Assembly (NCBI GenBank): GCA_017882605.1
Contig: JADGPE010000021.1
Location: 1-34,679 of the forward strand
Direction: 5' to 3'
Source: Thermoleophilia bacterium
GTDB taxonomy: Bacteria > Actinomycetota > Thermoleophilia > Gaiellales > Gaiellaceae
DNA: 34,679 nucleotides
The notes beneath the pieces were generated by a model. The model had not been told where the DNA came from, did no database searches, and saw nothing but the letters and a program-made list of their open reading frames with translations. Each line of letters opens with the position of its first letter. Position 1 is the stretch's first letter. Shown here one piece after another: positions 23,341 to 30,278 of this stretch. The translations under genes were made by a program, and so were the position numbers.

Positions 23341-24651
23341 CTATCCCTCGACGCGTTCGATGTGTGCACCGAGCGCGCGCAGGCGCTCGTCGATGCGCTC
23401 GTAGCCCTTGTCGATCTGGTAGGCGTCCCCGATCGTCGAAGTTCCTTCCGCGCACAGCGCGGCGATCACCATTGCCATCCCGGCGCGGATGTCCGGGCTC
23501 GACATGCGCTGGCCGTAGAGCGGTGCTGCGCCCGTGACGACCACCCGGTGCGGGTCGCAGAGGATGATCCGCGCGCCCATCGACACGAGCTTGTCGACGA
23601 AGAACAGGCGGCTCTCGAACATCTTCTCGAACACGAGCACGGTGCCCTTGGACTGCGTCGCGACGACGACGGCGATCGACGTCAGGTCAGCAGGGAACGC
23701 AGGCCACGGCCCGTCCTCGACCTTCGGGATGGCGCCTCCGAGGTCGTCCGTGATCTCGAGCTGCTGGTTCGGCGGCACGCGAACCCAGTCGTCGCCGAGC
23801 TCGACCTCGACGCCGAGCCGCTTCAGCACCGGCAGGACCGGCCAGAGATCGTCGGGAACGATGCCTTCGATCGTGAGCTCGCCACCGGTGACGGCGGCCA
23901 TGCCGATGAAGCTCCCCACCTCGATGTGCTCGGGCCCCACAGCATGCGAGCCGCCGGCCAGGCGCTCGACGCCGCTGATCTGCAGGACGTTCGAGCCGAT
24001 TCCCTCGATCTTCGCGCCCAACGAGACCAGAAACCGGCAGAGATCCTGCACGTGCGGTTCGCTGGCGGCGTTCGAGATCATCGTCTCGCCCGGCGCGAGC
24101 GACGCGGCCATGACCGCGTTCTCGGTCGCCATCACCGACGCCTCGTCCATGTGGATGTGCGCGCCGCGCAGGCGACCGCTCAGCTCATAGCGCCCGGGGT
24201 ATTCGAAGCTCGCCCCGAGCTCGGCGAACGCGTGGATATGGGGATCGAGGCGGCGGCGGCCGATCACGTCGCCGCCGGGAGGCGGCAAGGTCGCGCGCCC
24301 GAGCCGCGCCAGCAATGGCCCGGCGAGCAGGAACGACGCGCGGATCTGGCTCGCGAGCTTCGGATCCACCTCGTCCGTGACGTGCTCCGCGTGGACGCGG
24401 ACCTCGTTCTGGCCGGTCCATTCGGCGTCGGCGCCGAGACCCGAGAGCAAGTCGAGCATCGTGTCGACGTCGCGGATGCGCGGCACGTTCGACAGCAAGA
24501 CCGGCTCGTCGGTCAGAAGGCACGAGGCGAGAAGCGGCAGCGCAGCGTTCTTGTTGCCGGAGGCGCGCACCCGCCCGGAGATCGGGTGGCCGCCTTCGAT
24601 GACGAACGATTCGGCCAACGGCCTGACGACGGTCGAGGACAAAGCGCGCAC
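23341..24651 (-). CDS. murA: UDP-N-acetylglucosamine 1-carboxyvinyltransferase, Asp-type active site
   Basis: MurA adds enolpyruvate to UDP-GlcNAc, the first committed step of peptidoglycan synthesis. The 436-residue protein from GTG 24651 has the two-domain EPT fold. Lys34 lies in [25 protein letters not shown] precedes the loop, [12 protein letters not shown] begins the second half, and [14 protein letters not shown] with [16 protein letters not shown] ends it. In the catalytic loop [11 protein letters not shown], Asp128 replaces the usual Cys (Cys115 in E. coli), the fosfomycin target. The same swap is known in Mycobacterium MurA and gives natural fosfomycin resistance. The start codon lies 15 bases from the divergent HD gene. 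Confidence 0.95.
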
Positions 24652-24657
24652 TATGCT
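24652..24657 (+). promoter_or_regulatory. TATGCT -10 box in the murA/HD divergent gap
   Basis: TATGCT ends nine bases before GTG 24667 of the HD gene, within a gap of only 15 bases between the two divergent start codons. The leader could be at most about three bases. The -35 region would have to lie inside murA. Confidence 0.35.
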
Positions 24658-24666
24658 AGCCCCACC

Positions 24667-25227
24667 GTGAATCCGACCCGCCAACAAGCCTGGGAGACCC
24701 TGACCCGGTACACGAAGAGCGAGGCGCTCCTGCGCCACGCCCTGGCCGTCGAGGCCTCGACCGCCTCGTACGCCGTGCGGTTCGGGGAGGACGAGGAGCT
24801 CTGGCGCGTCGCGGCGCTCCTGCACGACTTCGACTACGAGATCCACCCCACCCTCGACAAGCATCCCCAGGATGGAGCGCCGATCCTGCGCGACGAGGGC
24901 TATCCCGAGGTCGTGATCGAAACGGTGCTGTCGCACGCCAACCACCTCGGCCTCCCGCGCGACACGCTGCTCAAGAAGACGCTCTTCGCGTGTGACGAGC
25001 TCTCCGGGTTCATCCACGCATGCGGCCTGGTGAGGCCCACCGGTCTCGAAGGGCTCGAACCGAAGTCCGTCAAGAAGAAGCTGAAGCAGCCGTCGTTCGC
25101 GGCCGGGGTCTCGCGCGAGGACGTCTACGAGGGCGCCGAGCTGCTCGGGCTCGACCTCGACGAGCACATCACGAACGTCGTCACCGCGCTGCAGCCGATC
25201 GCCGGCGAGCTCGGCCTGGCCGCCTAG
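24667..25227 (+). CDS. HD-domain hydrolase
   Basis: The 186-residue protein from GTG 24667 has an HD phosphohydrolase domain. The first His is His24 in [10 protein letters not shown], the HD doublet is 53-54 in ALLHDFDYE, and further His residues fall at [16 protein letters not shown] and [10 protein letters not shown]; Asp lies in [12 protein letters not shown]. This pattern is that of small metal-dependent phosphohydrolases annotated as HDIG-domain proteins in many bacteria. The substrate is unknown. The C-terminal [20 protein letters not shown] region is conserved in this subgroup. The stop codon shares the four bases CTAG with the convergent aminotransferase gene. Confidence 0.85.
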
Positions 25228-26324
25228 CGCTTCGTCAGCGCCGTGAGCCCTTCGGCCAGCCGGTCGAGGTCGGCGTCGTCGTTCCACCAGCCGACAGAGG
25301 CGCGCAGGAGGCCCGTCCCCGCCAGCTCGCGCAGGATCACTCCGCGTTCGTAGAGCGCAAGCGCGGCTTCGGCCGTGTCGCCGGGGAAGCGGATCGAGAC
25401 GAGGTTGCCCTGGCCCGGCTCGGTGACCACATCGTGACCGCGTTCGAGCAAGAGCCGGCGACACCGCTCGGAGAGCTCCCTCGCGTGTTCGAAGCGTCCG
25501 TCGGGGAGGCCGGTGAGCGCCGTCTCGAGGCCAGCGAGTGACGACGCCGGAGCGAACATGGTGTCGAAGCGCCGTGCTCCCGCCTTCGGCTCCCAGGTGC
25601 CCTCGGCGATGTCGTACGTCTCCGCGCCCGGGTAGGCGACGAGCCGCGGCCGCAACGAATCAGGATCGCGCACGTAGAGCGCGCCGGTCGCGTCCGGCCC
25701 GCAGAGCCACTTCTGAGCGCTGACCGTGTAGAAGTCCGCGGCGGTCGCATCGACGTCGCACGAGCCCACGGACTGGGCGCCGTCGACCAGCACGGGTACC
25801 TGCGTGGCTTCGCGCAGTTCGCGCCACGGGAAGACTTTGCCGTCGAGCCACGAGATCGCGGAGATCGCGATCAGCCGCGTGCGCGGTGTCACCTGCGCGC
25901 GGATCAACTCGAACACGTCGGCCGTCTTGGCCTGGCGAACCTTCGCAATGCGGAGCCGTGCTCCTGCTGCGAGCAGCGGCCCGGTCAGCCCGAAGTGCTC
26001 GGCGTCGGTCGTCGCGACCTCGTCGCCCTCACCGAGGGCAAGACCGCTGACGACGACGTGCACGCCCTGCGTCGTCGAGTCGGTCAGCGCGACGTTCTCG
26101 GCGGGCGCACGGATCTGGGTCGCGAGCAGCTCACGCACACGCTCGCGGCGTTCGAGCATCTCGTCGAAATACGCCCTGCCGCCGCGGCCGTGCTCCCCTT
26201 CCCAGGCGCGCAGCTCGGCCATCGCGGCCAGTGTCGTCCGTGCAAGTGGTCCGAACGTCCCCGCGTTCAGATAGGCGTGGCGGTCGAGCACGGGGAACCG
26301 CGCCCGCTCCTGGGGCCAGGTCAT
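25224..26324 (-). CDS. Class V aminotransferase-like PLP enzyme
   Basis: The 366-residue protein has the fold-type I pattern of class V aminotransferases (cysteine desulfurase / isopenicillin-N-epimerase group). It opens with [14 protein letters not shown] and continues with [19 protein letters not shown] and [28 protein letters not shown] has the PLP-ring Asp181, and [20 protein letters not shown] has the PLP lysine Lys205. No active-site Cys loop typical of NifS or SufS is evident, so it is more likely an epimerase/lyase or aminotransferase of unknown substrate. ATG 26324 overlaps the stop of the preceding nuclease gene (ATGA), so the two form an operon. Confidence 0.87.
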
Positions 26325-27109
26325 GTGATTTCGAGCTCCACCGGTGCGTGATCCGACAGCAGGCGGCCGCCGTGCGCGCGTTGCTCGTCGGACCAGCGGC
26401 GAAGTGGTGTGGCGGGAGCGCCGCGGACGAGAATGTGGTCGATGCCGGGCCCCGGCTCGGAGAACCCCCACTCAGCGCCCGCCAGGCTGCGCAGCGTGCT
26501 CGACCGGGCCGCCGTCACGTTGAAGTCTCCGGCCAGCACGACGACGTCCTCCGGTTGGGCCTCTGAGACCGCGAACCACGCTGCGCGCAGCAACTCGGCT
26601 TCGGCGAGCCGTTCGTCGGCGGCGTAGCTCGTGCAGTGCAGGTTGGCGACGAAGAACGTGCGGTCGTCGCGGTCCGCGACGCGCACCGCCTGCACGATCC
26701 GCCGCTCCTTCGCCCAGGCAAGGCGGGCGCGGAGCCCAAGGCCGAGCACCCTGGCCCGACCATCGCGAAAGCGGCGGGGATTCAGGGTCAAGACGGAGCG
26801 GGAGAGCACGCGCAGTGCGGGGCCGACGAGGATCGCGTTCCCCTGGCCCGAGAACGCCGAGCGGAACAGTCCCTGGTTCGGCCGCGTCAAGCGATGCCCG
26901 AGCCGCGCGCTGATCGGAACCGGGCCGACCCGGGGCCGGGCGGCGACGTCGCCGGCGGTGAAGAGCCCGAGTGCCCACGCCGGCACCTCTTGCACACAGA
27001 GCACGTCCGGATCGTCTGCAGTCGCGACGCGGATCATCTCGCCGAGGAAACCCGTCCGCTGCGGCGGCAGCGTGTTTCCGTGAAAGAGGTTCCAGCTCCG
27101 AATGAGCAC
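26321..27109 (-). CDS. Endonuclease/exonuclease/phosphatase (EEP) family protein
   Basis: The 262-residue protein has every catalytic mark of the EEP superfamily. Asn7 lies in SWNLFHGN, Glu41 in CVQEVPAW, Asp195 and Asn197 in LAGDFNVT, Asp224 and His225 in GIDHILV, and Asp253-His254 in LLSDHAPVEL. These metal-dependent phosphodiesterases act on DNA, RNA or phospholipid-type substrates. No signal peptide is seen, so it is probably cytosolic. The substrate is unknown. It starts at GTG 27109, directly after a shared -10 region with the divergent glycosyltransferase gene, and is coupled to the aminotransferase by a four-base overlap. Confidence 0.88.
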   Translation of the reverse strand: MLIRSWNLFHGNTLPPQRTGFLGEMIRVATADDPDVLCVQEVPAWALGLFTAGDVAARPRVGPVPISARLGHRLTRPNQGLFRSAFSGQGNAILVGPALRVLSRSVLTLNPRRFRDGRARVLGLGLRARLAWAKERRIVQAVRVADRDDRTFFVANLHCTSYAADERLAEAELLRAAWFAVSEAQPEDVVVLAGDFNVTAARSSTLRSLAGAEWGFSEPGPGIDHILVRGAPATPLRRWSDEQRAHGGRLLSDHAPVELEIT

Positions 27110-27114
27110 GCGCC

Positions 27115-27121
27115 TAAGCTA
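27115..27121. promoter_or_regulatory. Overlapping divergent -10 boxes (bidirectional leaderless promoter)
   Basis: On the plus strand TAAGCT (27115-27120) ends seven bases before GTG 27128. On the minus strand TAGCTT (27121-27116) ends six bases before GTG 27109. The two TANNNT boxes share five base pairs. Neither gene has a Shine-Dalgarno sequence in the 18-base gap, so both are likely leaderless. Confidence 0.5.
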
Positions 27122-27127
27122 CTTCAG

Positions 27128-28165
27128 GTGCGCGTCCTCCTTGCCGACCCTCCCGCGTTCACACCGTGGTACGACCACGAGCTGGCCTCGGCGCTCGGAC
27201 GCGCCGGCGTCGAGGTCGAGCTCCAGACATCGAGGTTCCGCTTCGGCGAAGTGCCGGACGTCGACGGCTACCGGCGCAGCGAGCGGTGGTATCCCCTCTC
27301 CTCACGGCTCTTCGGCCGATCCCGCCTGCGGCTGCCGCTGAAAGCCGTCGAGCATCTCGAGGTGATGCGCTCGCTCTCGCGTGCCCGCGCAGACGTGCTC
27401 CACCTACAGTGGCTTGCGCTGCCGCAGGCGGACGTCCACCTCCGCTTTCGCTCACCGTCGGTCTTCACCGCACACGATCTGCTGCCGCGGCGCACCGCTT
27501 CACGCACCGAGCTCTGGCGGCGGCTGCTCCGCCGGTTCGACCGCGTCGTCGTGCACACCGAAAGCGGCCGAGAGACGCTCGGCGCGCTCGGCGTCGACGC
27601 GCACGTCATTCCGCATCCCGTCTACCCGAGTGCGGCCACGCGCGCGGACGACGGCGCCACGCTGCTCGCACTCGGGGTCATCCGCCCGTACAAGGGCCTG
27701 GCCGACGCAATCGAAGTGACTCGGCGGCTCCCCGAGGCGCGGCTGCTCGTCGCCGGCGACCCCGCGATGCCGCTGGACGGCCTGCGCGACGCGCAGCGAG
27801 TCGAGTGGCGCCTCGGTTTCCTCTCGACCCCCGAGCTGGATCGCGCCCTCTCGGAAGCGACCGTCGCGGTCTTCCCGTACCGCCCCGAGCTCGACCAATC
27901 AGGCGCGCTCCTGCAAGCGCTCGGCGCCGGCGTGCCGGCCGTCGTCTACGACGTGGGTGGTCTCGGCGACCCGGTGCGCGCCTACGGTGCCGGTCAGGTC
28001 GTGCCTGCCGGCGACGTGGACGCGCTCACGGCGGCCGTCGGCGAGCTTCTCTCCGACTCCGCCACGCTCGCGGCCGCCCGCGCCGGTGCCGAGCGCGCCC
28101 GCGCAGAGTTGACGTGGGACGCGGCGGCCGCGCAGCATCTCGCTCTCTATCGTGAGCTCGCGTGA
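27128..28165 (+). CDS. GT4-like glycosyltransferase
   Basis: The 345-residue protein from GTG 27128 has a two-domain GT-B fold. The N-terminal part starts VRVLLADPPAFTPWYDHELA and includes DVLHLQWLALP and SVFTAHDLLPRRT. The C-terminal Rossmann domain begins near LLALGVIRPYKGLADAIEV. It carries RLLVAGDPAMP and then YRPELDQSGALLQALGAGVP, in which the E-x7-E-like region of GT4 is degenerate (Asp-Gln in place of the second Glu). The nucleotide-sugar donor and acceptor are unknown. It heads a three-gene plus-strand unit with a small helical protein and a GH15 enzyme, so a role in alpha-glucan or trehalose-type metabolism or cell-surface sugars is possible. Confidence 0.83.
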   Translation: MRVLLADPPAFTPWYDHELASALGRAGVEVELQTSRFRFGEVPDVDGYRRSERWYPLSSRLFGRSRLRLPLKAVEHLEVMRSLSRARADVLHLQWLALPQADVHLRFRSPSVFTAHDLLPRRTASRTELWRRLLRRFDRVVVHTESGRETLGALGVDAHVIPHPVYPSAATRADDGATLLALGVIRPYKGLADAIEVTRRLPEARLLVAGDPAMPLDGLRDAQRVEWRLGFLSTPELDRALSEATVAVFPYRPELDQSGALLQALGAGVPAVVYDVGGLGDPVRAYGAGQVVPAGDVDALTAAVGELLSDSATLAAARAGAERARAELTWDAAAAQHLALYRELA

Positions 28166-28470
28166 TGTTCCGTCGTGCCCGCTTCACTGAGGTGATCGAC
28201 TCGCAGCTCGACCTGTTCGAAGGCGACCACGGAGACGTGCTCACCGAAGCCGCCGCGCGCCTCGAGAGCTACCACCGCGCCGGCCGCGACGAAGCAGAGG
28301 AGCTGTACGGTGACTACCTCGACTCCGTCGAGACCGGCACGGAGCTCCTGGCCGACATGCGCGACCACTACGCGCGGTCACTGGATCACCCCGACGCGTA
28401 TCTCCGCGAGTTCAACAAGGCGGTCGCGCGGCGTCTGCCTCCGTTCGCTCTGGAGATCGAGAACCGGTAA
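28165..28470 (+). CDS. Small helical hypothetical protein
   Basis: A 101-residue, strongly charged, mostly helical protein (MFRRARFTEVIDSQLDLFEG at the start, then Glu/Ala/Arg-rich helices, RLPPFALEIENR at the end). No cysteines, membrane segments or known motif are visible, and I do not recognise the family. ATG 28165 shares one base with the preceding TGA; GTG 28162 just before is also possible. Its last base overlaps the start of the GH15 gene (TAATG), so it is translated as part of that operon and may be a partner of the glycosidase or glycosyltransferase. Confidence 0.7.
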   Translation: MFRRARFTEVIDSQLDLFEGDHGDVLTEAAARLESYHRAGRDEAEELYGDYLDSVETGTELLADMRDHYARSLDHPDAYLREFNKAVARRLPPFALEIENR

Positions 28471-30278
28471 TGGCGGGGCGCATCGAGGACTACGCGCTCG
28501 TCGGCGACCTACAGACCGCGGCACTGATCGGCCGGGATGGCTCGGTCGATTGGCTCTGCTTGCCGCGCTTCGACTCCGGTGCCTGCTTCGCCGCCCTGCT
28601 CGGCACTCATGACCACGGCCACTGGTCGATCTCGCCCGTCAACGGAGGGCCTGCGACCACCCGCCGTTACCGCGACAACACGCTCATCCTCGAGAGCGAA
28701 TGGCAGACCCCGACCGGCCGCGTGCGGGTAATCGACTTCATGCCACCGCGCGGCCATTCGCCCGACATCGTGCGCATCGTCGAAGGCCTCGAAGGGACCG
28801 TCGAGATGACGACCGAGCTCGTGATCCGCTTCGACTACGGCTCGGTCATCCCCTGGCTGCTCCGGCTCGACGACGACACGCTCGTCGCGATCGGCGGCCC
28901 CGACGGCCTGGCACTTCGCACTCCGGTCGACCTCGAGCCGGACGGGATGAAGCACGTCGCAACCTTCTCGGTGCGCGCCGGCGATCGCGTCCCGTTCGTC
29001 CTCACCTGGTTCCCGTCGCACCATCACCGGCCACCCCAGCCCGTCGACGCCGAGCGGGCGCTCAAGGACACGGAGGCGTATTGGCTGAAGTGGTTCGAGA
29101 GCTGCGCGTACGAGGGCGGGTACCGCGACGCGGTGCACGTTTCGCTCGCCGTCCTGAAGGCGCTCACCTTCCAGCCGACGGGCGGGATCGTCGCCGCGCC
29201 GACGACGTCGCTCCCGGAGCTGATCGGTGGCGAGCGCAACTGGGACTACCGCTTCACCTGGCTGCGCGATGCGACGTTCACATTGTTCGCGATGATGAAC
29301 GCCGGCTTCACCGCCGAGGCTCGCGCCTGGCGGAACTGGTTGCTCCGCGCTGTCGCCGGCGATCCGGCGAACGCCCAGATCCTCTACGGCGTGGGCGGTG
29401 AACGCCGGGTCGACGAGCGCGTCCTCGACTGGCTGCCCGGATATGCGGGCTCGGCTCCGGTCCGCGTCGGAAACGCCGCCCACGAGCAGTTCCAGCTCGA
29501 CGTCTACGGCGAGGTGATGGACGCACTGCACCAGGCGCGCGTCGAGGGACTGCCTGCGGACGACCACGGCTGGTCGCTGCAGCAGGCCCTCATGGAGTTC
29601 CTCGAAGGCGCCTGGGAACTGCCCGACGAGGGGATCTGGGAGGTGCGTGGCCCGCGGCGGCATTTCACGCACTCGAAGGTGCTCGCGTGGGTCGCGTTCG
29701 ACCGAGCCGTCGACACTGTCGAGCGTTTCGACCTGCCAGGCCCGATCGACCGCTGGCGCAGACTGCGCGACGACGTGCATCGCGAGGTTTGCCGCGAGGC
29801 GTTCAACGTCGAGCTCAATTCGTTCACACAGGCGTACGGCTCGGATGAGCTCGACGCATCGACGCTGCTGATCCCGCTCGTCGGCTTCCTGCCGGGCAAC
29901 GATCCGCGAGTGCTCGGTACGATCGACGCGATCCAGCGGGACCTGACGCGCGACGGCTTCGTCGAGCGGTACAGGCAGAAGGCCGACCACAACCCGGTCG
30001 ACGGGCTGAGCGGCGGCGAAGGGGTGTTCCTGCCGTGCTCGTTCTGGCTCGTGGACGCGCTCTTGATGGCAGAGCGGGACGACGAGGCACGTGCGCTGTT
30101 CGAGCAGCTGCTTGCGGTGCGCAACGACCTCGGGCTCCTCTCCGAGGAGTACGACCCGGCCGCGAAACGGTTGCTCGGAAACTTCCCGCAGGCGTTCACG
30201 CACGTCGGCCTCGTCAACTCGGCCTACAACCTCTCGCACCACGTAGGCCCGATGCACCAGCGCACCGGCAGGCGCTAG
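28470..30278 (+). CDS. GH15 glycosidase (glucoamylase/trehalase-like)
   Basis: The 602-residue protein matches the bacterial GH15 group that includes actinobacterial trehalases. The N-terminal super-sandwich domain starts RIEDYALVGDLQTAALIGRD, then GSVDWLCLPRFDS. The (alpha/alpha)6 barrel includes IVAAPTTSLPELIGGERNWD, YRFTWLRDATF, and GIWEVRGPRRHFTHSKVLAW with Glu391 as the likely general acid. The likely general base is Glu559 or Glu560 in LSEEYDP. No signal peptide is present, so it is cytosolic and would cut trehalose or short alpha-glucans. It is the last gene of the GT4 operon and ends in a double hairpin region. Confidence 0.93.
   Translation: MAGRIEDYALVGDLQTAALIGRDGSVDWLCLPRFDSGACFAALLGTHDHGHWSISPVNGGPATTRRYRDNTLILESEWQTPTGRVRVIDFMPPRGHSPDIVRIVEGLEGTVEMTTELVIRFDYGSVIPWLLRLDDDTLVAIGGPDGLALRTPVDLEPDGMKHVATFSVRAGDRVPFVLTWFPSHHHRPPQPVDAERALKDTEAYWLKWFESCAYEGGYRDAVHVSLAVLKALTFQPTGGIVAAPTTSLPELIGGERNWDYRFTWLRDATFTLFAMMNAGFTAEARAWRNWLLRAVAGDPANAQILYGVGGERRVDERVLDWLPGYAGSAPVRVGNAAHEQFQLDVYGEVMDALHQARVEGLPADDHGWSLQQALMEFLEGAWELPDEGIWEVRGPRRHFTHSKVLAWVAFDRAVDTVERFDLPGPIDRWRRLRDDVHREVCREAFNVELNSFTQAYGSDELDASTLLIPLVGFLPGNDPRVLGTIDAIQRDLTRDGFVERYRQKADHNPVDGLSGGEGVFLPCSFWLVDALLMAERDDEARALFEQLLAVRNDLGLLSEEYDPAAKRLLGNFPQAFTHVGLVNSAYNLSHHVGPMHQRTGRR

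Follow-up and report, generated by a model that had tools for sequence, protein, structure and literature searches.

A symmetric -10 element probably shared by two divergent, predicted leaderless operons in Gaiellaceae (Thermoleophilia)

The sequence TAAGCTA, located between the divergent genes for an EEP-family protein and a GT4 glycosyltransferase, is very probably (about 0.85) a shared -10 element of the sigma-A type that serves as a bidirectional promoter for two leaderless mRNAs, giving two operons a common entry point. The element was identified in a 34,679-nucleotide stretch of DNA (the window; contig JADGPE010000021.1 of assembly GCA_017882605.1) from a Thermoleophilia bacterium in the family Gaiellaceae. 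Either orientation of TAAGCTA could be bound by RNA polymerase, since A2 on each strand is paired with T6 on the opposite one, a reciprocity present in the sequence and conserved in relatives. Transcription in each direction would begin approximately 7 bases past the box, on the initial G of the respective GTG. Both mRNAs would thus be leaderless, and they would be translated without a Shine-Dalgarno site. The two presumed operons would share one entry point because a single polymerase would occupy the box at a time. Coordinates are given in Table 1.

Table 1. Features of the element and of the genes that surround it in the window
Feature	Position	Strand	Basis
Class-V aminotransferase (PF00266), presumed second gene of minus operon	25224..26324	-	Pfam, gene caller
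EEP-family protein (Exo_endo_phos, PF03372, E 5.8e-12), 262 aa	26321..27109	-	Pfam
EEP GTG, predicted transcript start 27109	27107..27109	-	Sequence and gene caller
Minus -10 box TAGCTT (27121-27116), 6 bases before EEP GTG	27116..27121	-	Sequence
TAAGCTA, symmetric TANNNTA, putative -10 box shared by both directions	27115..27121	both	TANNNTA in 46/47 close-partner junctions
Plus -10 box TAAGCT, 7 bases before GT4 GTG	27115..27120	+	Sequence; genome-wide 6-9 peak
GT4 GTG, predicted transcript start 27128	27128..27130	+	Sequence and gene caller
GT4 glycosyltransferase (PF13439, PF13692), 345 aa, presumed first gene of plus operon	27128..28165	+	Pfam
Trehalase-like (TreH1/TreH2) protein, downstream in presumed plus operon	28470..30278	+	Matches below curated cut-offs
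TATGCTA, second TANNNTA, between murA and HD-domain gene	24652..24658	both	Only other TANNNTA in window

Both genes start with GTG, and 18 bases (GCGCCTAAGCTACTTCAG) separate the two codons. An earlier sequence-only reading had placed the starts at 27109 and 27128, with overlapping hexamers TAAGCT (plus) and TAGCTT (minus) ending 7 and 6 bases before their own GTG. These positions are exact, the two hexamers form the single 7-mer TAAGCTA, and a codon-usage gene caller that is blind to promoter motifs picks exactly the same starts. An EEP start further upstream is impossible because an in-frame TAG, itself part of the minus box, is the fourth codon upstream of the GTG. The EEP open frame is 265 aa, compared with 262 aa for the protein, and the next in-frame start downstream is 24 codons inside the protein and 90 nt from the GT4 start. 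Among 45 GT4 orthologues with a close EEP gene, an in-frame stop is found at most five codons upstream of the aligned start in 10, which favors the 27128 start; some other in-frame start occurs further upstream in 31. The claim that no ribosome site fits also stands: inspection of the sequence before the GT4 GTG revealed no Shine-Dalgarno site, and the EEP GTG has no good one, only an AGG at -6 to -4. Both starts resemble actinobacterial leaderless genes in this respect. A scan for -35/-10 consensus promoters found none, but it does not discriminate, since shuffled sequences also had a mean of 0.0.

The aminotransferase gene overlaps the EEP stop by 4 bases, and these two genes presumably form the minus operon. 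The plus operon presumably consists of the GT4 gene, a small gene, and the trehalase-like gene. In two relatives (loci L019 and L021, genomes G042 and G031) no match to the EEP-family protein was found; the aminotransferase gene is 19-21 bases away, and the element is retained.

The genome of the window (2,095,972 bases in 109 contigs, 82.55% complete) shows a widespread leaderless signature. Genes were called in 533,506 bases of this genome (the window and 40 further stretches) and in 800,000 bases of G030, a relative with a single contig. For 118 divergent genes of the window's genome, the numbers with TANNNT at distances of 0 to 11 bases before the start are 0, 0, 0, 1, 0, 0, 16, 8, 8, 8, 3, and 3, with 4 in total at distances of 12-24. 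Thus 40 of the 118 genes have the box 6-9 bases upstream of the start, and it occurs almost nowhere else, with a tail to 11. The same peak is present in G030 and before tandem genes, and both genome samples carry the leaderless signature. As far as sequence can tell, this bears out the proposal that the boxes at the junction have leaderless spacing. A TA-like signal is read as leaderless in Actinobacteria in PMC3160421, and PMC3898074 reports a TANNNT box in Mycobacterium tuberculosis with no conserved -35 element identified there. No TTG peak indicative of a -35 element was detected upstream of the boxes of 102 leaderless genes from the window's genome and 142 from G030, and the TTGACA-like hexamer of a two-hexamer sigma-70 promoter was not found. 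Shine-Dalgarno-like four-base cores precede 79 of 234 short-gap tandem genes, 32 of 150 longer-gap tandem genes, and 24 of 118 divergent genes in the window's genome. The dinucleotide TA is scarce in this sample (4,882 compared with 12,845 expected from base composition), and the rarity of TA and TANNNTA possibly reflects selection against stray -10 boxes.

The symmetric element is conserved where the two genes start close together. The GT4 protein was found in 62 of 101 genomes (E 1e-40) and the EEP-family protein in 49 (E 1e-20). Junctions were collected for GT4 matches with E values of at most 1e-20 that started within the first 10 residues and had enough upstream sequence, and removal of identical 120-base junctions reduced 122 loci to 66 distinct junctions. 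A divergent EEP or aminotransferase gene starts within 31 bases in 47 of these. In 46 of the 47 close junctions TANNNT is 6-9 bases before the GT4 start (11 in the remaining one), and a terminal A completes TANNNTA in 46 of 47, compared with 5 of the 19 other junctions. An alternative tally gives 48 of 49 and 3 of 17 when two loci are moved by hand to the close class, L012 for its broken EEP pieces and L094, which has no qualifying EEP match, for the look of its junction alone. Nine symmetric 7-mers occur: TACTGTA, TAGCCTA, TAGCGTA, TACGCTA, TAGTCTA, TACTCTA, TAAGCTA, TAGGCTA, and TAGTGTA.

A quick tree of GT4 proteins, built from 49 close rows that include the two moved by hand, shows a single change at A7. 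Each of the middle bases (N3-N5) changes six times. The counts are 6, 9, and 6 for the nearest flanks and 12-23 for positions beyond these. These last counts are inflated by ungapped alignment on the box, with coding sequence at variable spacing, so the nearest flanks are the fair comparison with A7. T1, A2, and T6 have no changes on the tree; these bases were the search criterion, and A7 alone is therefore independent evidence. In the two genome samples, other leaderless boxes are rarely followed by A (11 of 220). For boxes in close divergent pairs (gap of at most 35, the window's own pair included) the corresponding values are 4 of 14 and 2 of 7.

The distance between the EEP and GT4 starts is 17-20 bases in 21 of 45 junctions when the EEP start is set by the aligned first residue. 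It is 17-20 bases in 34 of 44 junctions, with a mode of 18, if the EEP start is instead taken as the in-frame start codon whose distance from the box is nearest to 7 bases, a choice that itself favors gaps of 17-20. EEP spacing was scored in 44 of the 45 junctions, with the asymmetric L013 omitted. Relatives have 5-13 bases between the EEP start and the box, with 8-13 in 10 of 44, so that the transcript may have a very short leader in those ten instead of none at all. The EEP start codon is TTG in four orthologues and CTG in six. In C. diphtheriae, UUG starts are reported only together with a ribosome site, and by analogy this would count against a leaderless reading of the four TTG starts. 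For six loci (L015, L018, L093, L105, L112, and L117) CTG, 7 bases off, is the only in-frame EEP start near the box, making leaderless CUG initiation possible in these orthologues.

Symmetry is absent from EEP/GT4 junctions with gaps of 248 (L024), 97 (L031), and 52 (L068) bases, from L067, where the aminotransferase gene is at 41 bases, and from L027 and more distant GT4 relatives. Locus L013, with a gap of 24, has two boxes with a common TA (AGTCTAGGCT), a layout that in our reading resembles the published 23-bp class of divergent starts. Boxes that share only a TA dinucleotide (e.g. AGTGTAGGTT) were also seen at L151 near 3118, L127 near 19704, and L239. Symmetry is kept at L030, where the divergent neighbor, at a distance of 40 bases, has its own box, and at L029 and L064, beside other or no identified partners; these three loci contradict a strict rule linking spacing to symmetry. 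On the quick GT4 tree, only two supported independent pairs bear on spacing versus symmetry at this junction.

The second TANNNTA of the window has a similar setting. For murA on the minus strand (TIGR01072, above cut-off) an in-frame TTG at 24642 is 10 bases from the box, and the HD-domain gene on the plus strand has a GTG at 24667, 9 bases away. The gene caller placed the murA start at a TTG at 24618, which is 34 bases away from the minus box, and this shorter form agrees with the MurA model. The element is symmetric in 26 of 29 relatives. Seventeen of the 29 have an in-frame MurA ATG, GTG, or TTG at a distance of 5-11 bases, mostly 10, and symmetry persists in seven loci without a MurA start near the box. 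In several relatives (e.g. L206, L208, L209, and L212) murA must start elsewhere because the aligned codon is not a start codon. We considered whether spacing at this pair equals the 6-7 bases of the EEP/GT4 junction and rejected this, as distances are mostly 8-10 on both sides.

These longer distances, together with the 6-9 range and the tail to 11 across the genome, are the grounds for a bidirectional promoter that is near-leaderless, with leaders of one to five bases. Distances of 6 and 7 at 27109 and 27128 are, on the other hand, those expected for transcription that begins at the GTG, and we regard short leaders at this junction as unlikely.

A third divergent pair, a calcium/proton exchanger (cax) and a HAD hydrolase (NCBIfam; L156 near 16530), is symmetric in all 10 loci with gaps of at most 20 bases and in 1 of 10 others (Fisher p 1.2e-4, uncorrected for relatedness, with the near/far split of the 20 rows judged by eye). 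G030 has a TANNNTA beside uvrC. Symmetry is not the rule among close divergent pairs. For gaps of 15-26 bases, the element is present in 2 of 7 pairs in the window's genome and 1 of 6 in G030, and several pairs are boxed on one side only.

Such one-sided pairs are what would be expected if the plus box alone were the GT4 promoter, with EEP depending on a promoter elsewhere and the additional A present by chance or retained for some unrelated reason, and the tighter spacing on the GT4 side (6-9 in 46 of 47 close junctions and 11 in one, against 5-13 for EEP) points the same way. This alternative must contend with the single change at A7 in a setting where A so rarely follows other boxes. It would also leave EEP without any other box in the 18 bases, and with an in-frame stop just upstream. 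Where divergent genes are spaced more widely, several pairs have two distinct boxes, one next to each start (also seen at L245 and L248), and we consider a one-way GT4 promoter very unlikely.

Less probable still, and hardly to be expected, is that TANNNTA is the operator of a dimeric regulator, with each gene transcribed from a leadered promoter located in the opposite gene. The element is short and symmetric, and the space between divergent genes is a usual site of operators. The three middle bases, however, are variable, the 7-base frame recurs at -10 distance at the unrelated murA/HD, cax/HAD, and uvrC (G030) sites, and single TANNNT boxes occur at equal distance before tandem genes.

TANNNTA occurs at 17 sites in the 533,506 bases of the window's genome. 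Two are in the window, both between the starts of divergent called genes, compared with a shuffle mean of 2.43. Because the window count matches the shuffles, it is placement and conservation, not number, that exceed chance. A called start is 5-11 bases from TANNNTA on at least one side at 8 of 17 sites in this genome and 9 of 29 in G030, and on both sides at 3 of the 46. For the spacing decoys TANNTA and TANNNNTA, a start is found at 5-11 bases in 1 of 77 and 1 of 225.

A wider search used the pattern CAYN6TANNNTAN6RTG, which yielded 61 sites in 61 genomes of the window's family, a few of which are EEP/GT4 junctions. With spacings of 5 and 6, the site of the window itself is outside this count. 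Decoys in the same genomes gave 7 (N3), 13 (N10), and 21 (reversed pattern) sites. These sums were added by hand, and the counts are not independent because related genomes share orthologous sites. We compared gene calls, made with the codon model of the window's genome, at 20 N6 sites hand-picked from the 61 (not random, EEP/GT4 excluded) and at all 20 family decoys; called starts no more than 30 codons away were accepted when scoring both sides. Divergent called genes in the right frames flank both sides of 14 of the 20 N6 sites, with exactly the two starts of the pattern called in 8 of the 14, and one side of the other 6. Genes flank both sides of 0 of 7 N3 decoys and 2 of 13 N10 decoys. 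At least 60 open codons extend from both sides of all 20 N6 sites, compared with 4 of 20 decoys.

Across 149 genomes drawn from the phylum, the decoy spacing is about as frequent as the pattern in a number of families, and we therefore make no phylum-wide claim. Hand counts in families f24 (5 genomes; 20 pattern sites versus 3 decoys) and f21 (13 genomes; 25 versus 12) are a lead only. A near-identical N6 site with a TAGCCTACGGG core occurs in about a dozen genomes of family f3 of the same order (e.g. G079:C124:7401-7425 and G085:C1:1999-2023) and represents a further conserved pair. In one genome, G076, the reversed N10 control pattern matches 31 times, perhaps because of a repeat family.

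A chance arrangement in a compact genome would fit the unremarkable TANNNTA count of the window, and conservation over the family and the decoy-spacing controls reduce its probability to almost nothing. The proposal that one 7-base segment serves two leaderless directions is supported by the comparative evidence. A shared bidirectional box is favored because A7 has been retained whereas the middle bases and flanks vary, because A is rare after other leaderless boxes, because the geometry exceeds decoy spacings and is found mostly between divergent genes, and because cax/HAD symmetry tracks close spacing.

Symmetric bidirectional promoters, in which one -10 element is read on both strands, are described in PMC10268837. 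Divergent starts are most often 18 bp apart there because -7T and -11A pair reciprocally, and distances of 10 and 23 bp are also reported as common (PMC12825309); the class spans 7-25 bp. Opposing polymerases cannot bind such a promoter together, and bidirectional -10 elements have been dissected in Escherichia coli. According to PMC12825309, such promoters are found throughout the prokaryotes and are mostly linked to mRNA synthesis. Judged by its sequence, TAAGCTA very probably acts in the manner of the 18-bp symmetric promoters known from E. coli and Salmonella, here combined with leaderless initiation. The reciprocal A2/T6 box is common to both, with the difference that the 18 bases measured here are between start codons and the transcript starts are predicted. 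Also unlike the published promoters, the predicted transcript starts coincide with two protein start codons, and conservation of the element extends across a family. The word leaderless has no occurrence in the main text of PMC10268837 or in the text available of PMC12825309.

The box, its distance, and the lack of a Shine-Dalgarno site agree with actinobacterial leaderless genes, which have TANNNT approximately 10-12 bp upstream (PMC3160421, PMC3898074). Those articles treat leaderless genes singly as far as their text was available, whereas TAAGCTA would be one box for two. Closely juxtaposed divergent promoters are described in PMC3898074, where a figure legend identifies Rv1130/Rv1129c as a divergent pair with both genes leaderless, so that divergent leaderless pairs are already known; as far as the text of that article was available, a box common to both genes is not described. 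The LysG/lysE genes of M. tuberculosis (PMC5648196) are likewise divergent actinobacterial genes with overlapping promoters and one leaderless lysE transcript. That system differs in its 108-bp intergenic region, in an inverted repeat that is a proposed regulator site, and in that its overlapping promoters are not the leaderless one. A shared -10 box for two leaderless genes was not recognized in the open-licence literature, as available to us, on divergent and bidirectional promoters, leaderless genes, and Thermoleophilia. The part added here is that the box is both shared and conserved.

The symmetry of the -10 box at this junction looks selected for. Because the genes would be leaderless, the 18-bp rule for transcript starts would become a rule for start-codon spacing, and this spacing would be a readout of promoter geometry, since the predicted transcript starts are also the starts of two coding genes. 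We suggest, at slightly less than even odds given the low share of close pairs that carry the element, that TANNNTA is a dedicated class of gene-pair promoter in Gaiellales and perhaps in other high-GC actinobacteria. Such a promoter would lock leaderless genes 17-20 bases apart, survive replacement of a partner by the next gene of its operon, and split into two one-way boxes as the gap grows, with one polymerase setting a fixed trade-off between the operons. If true, bidirectional promoters could be proposed in uncultured actinobacteria from sequence alone, and competition between polymerases would be testable at native, conserved gene pairs.
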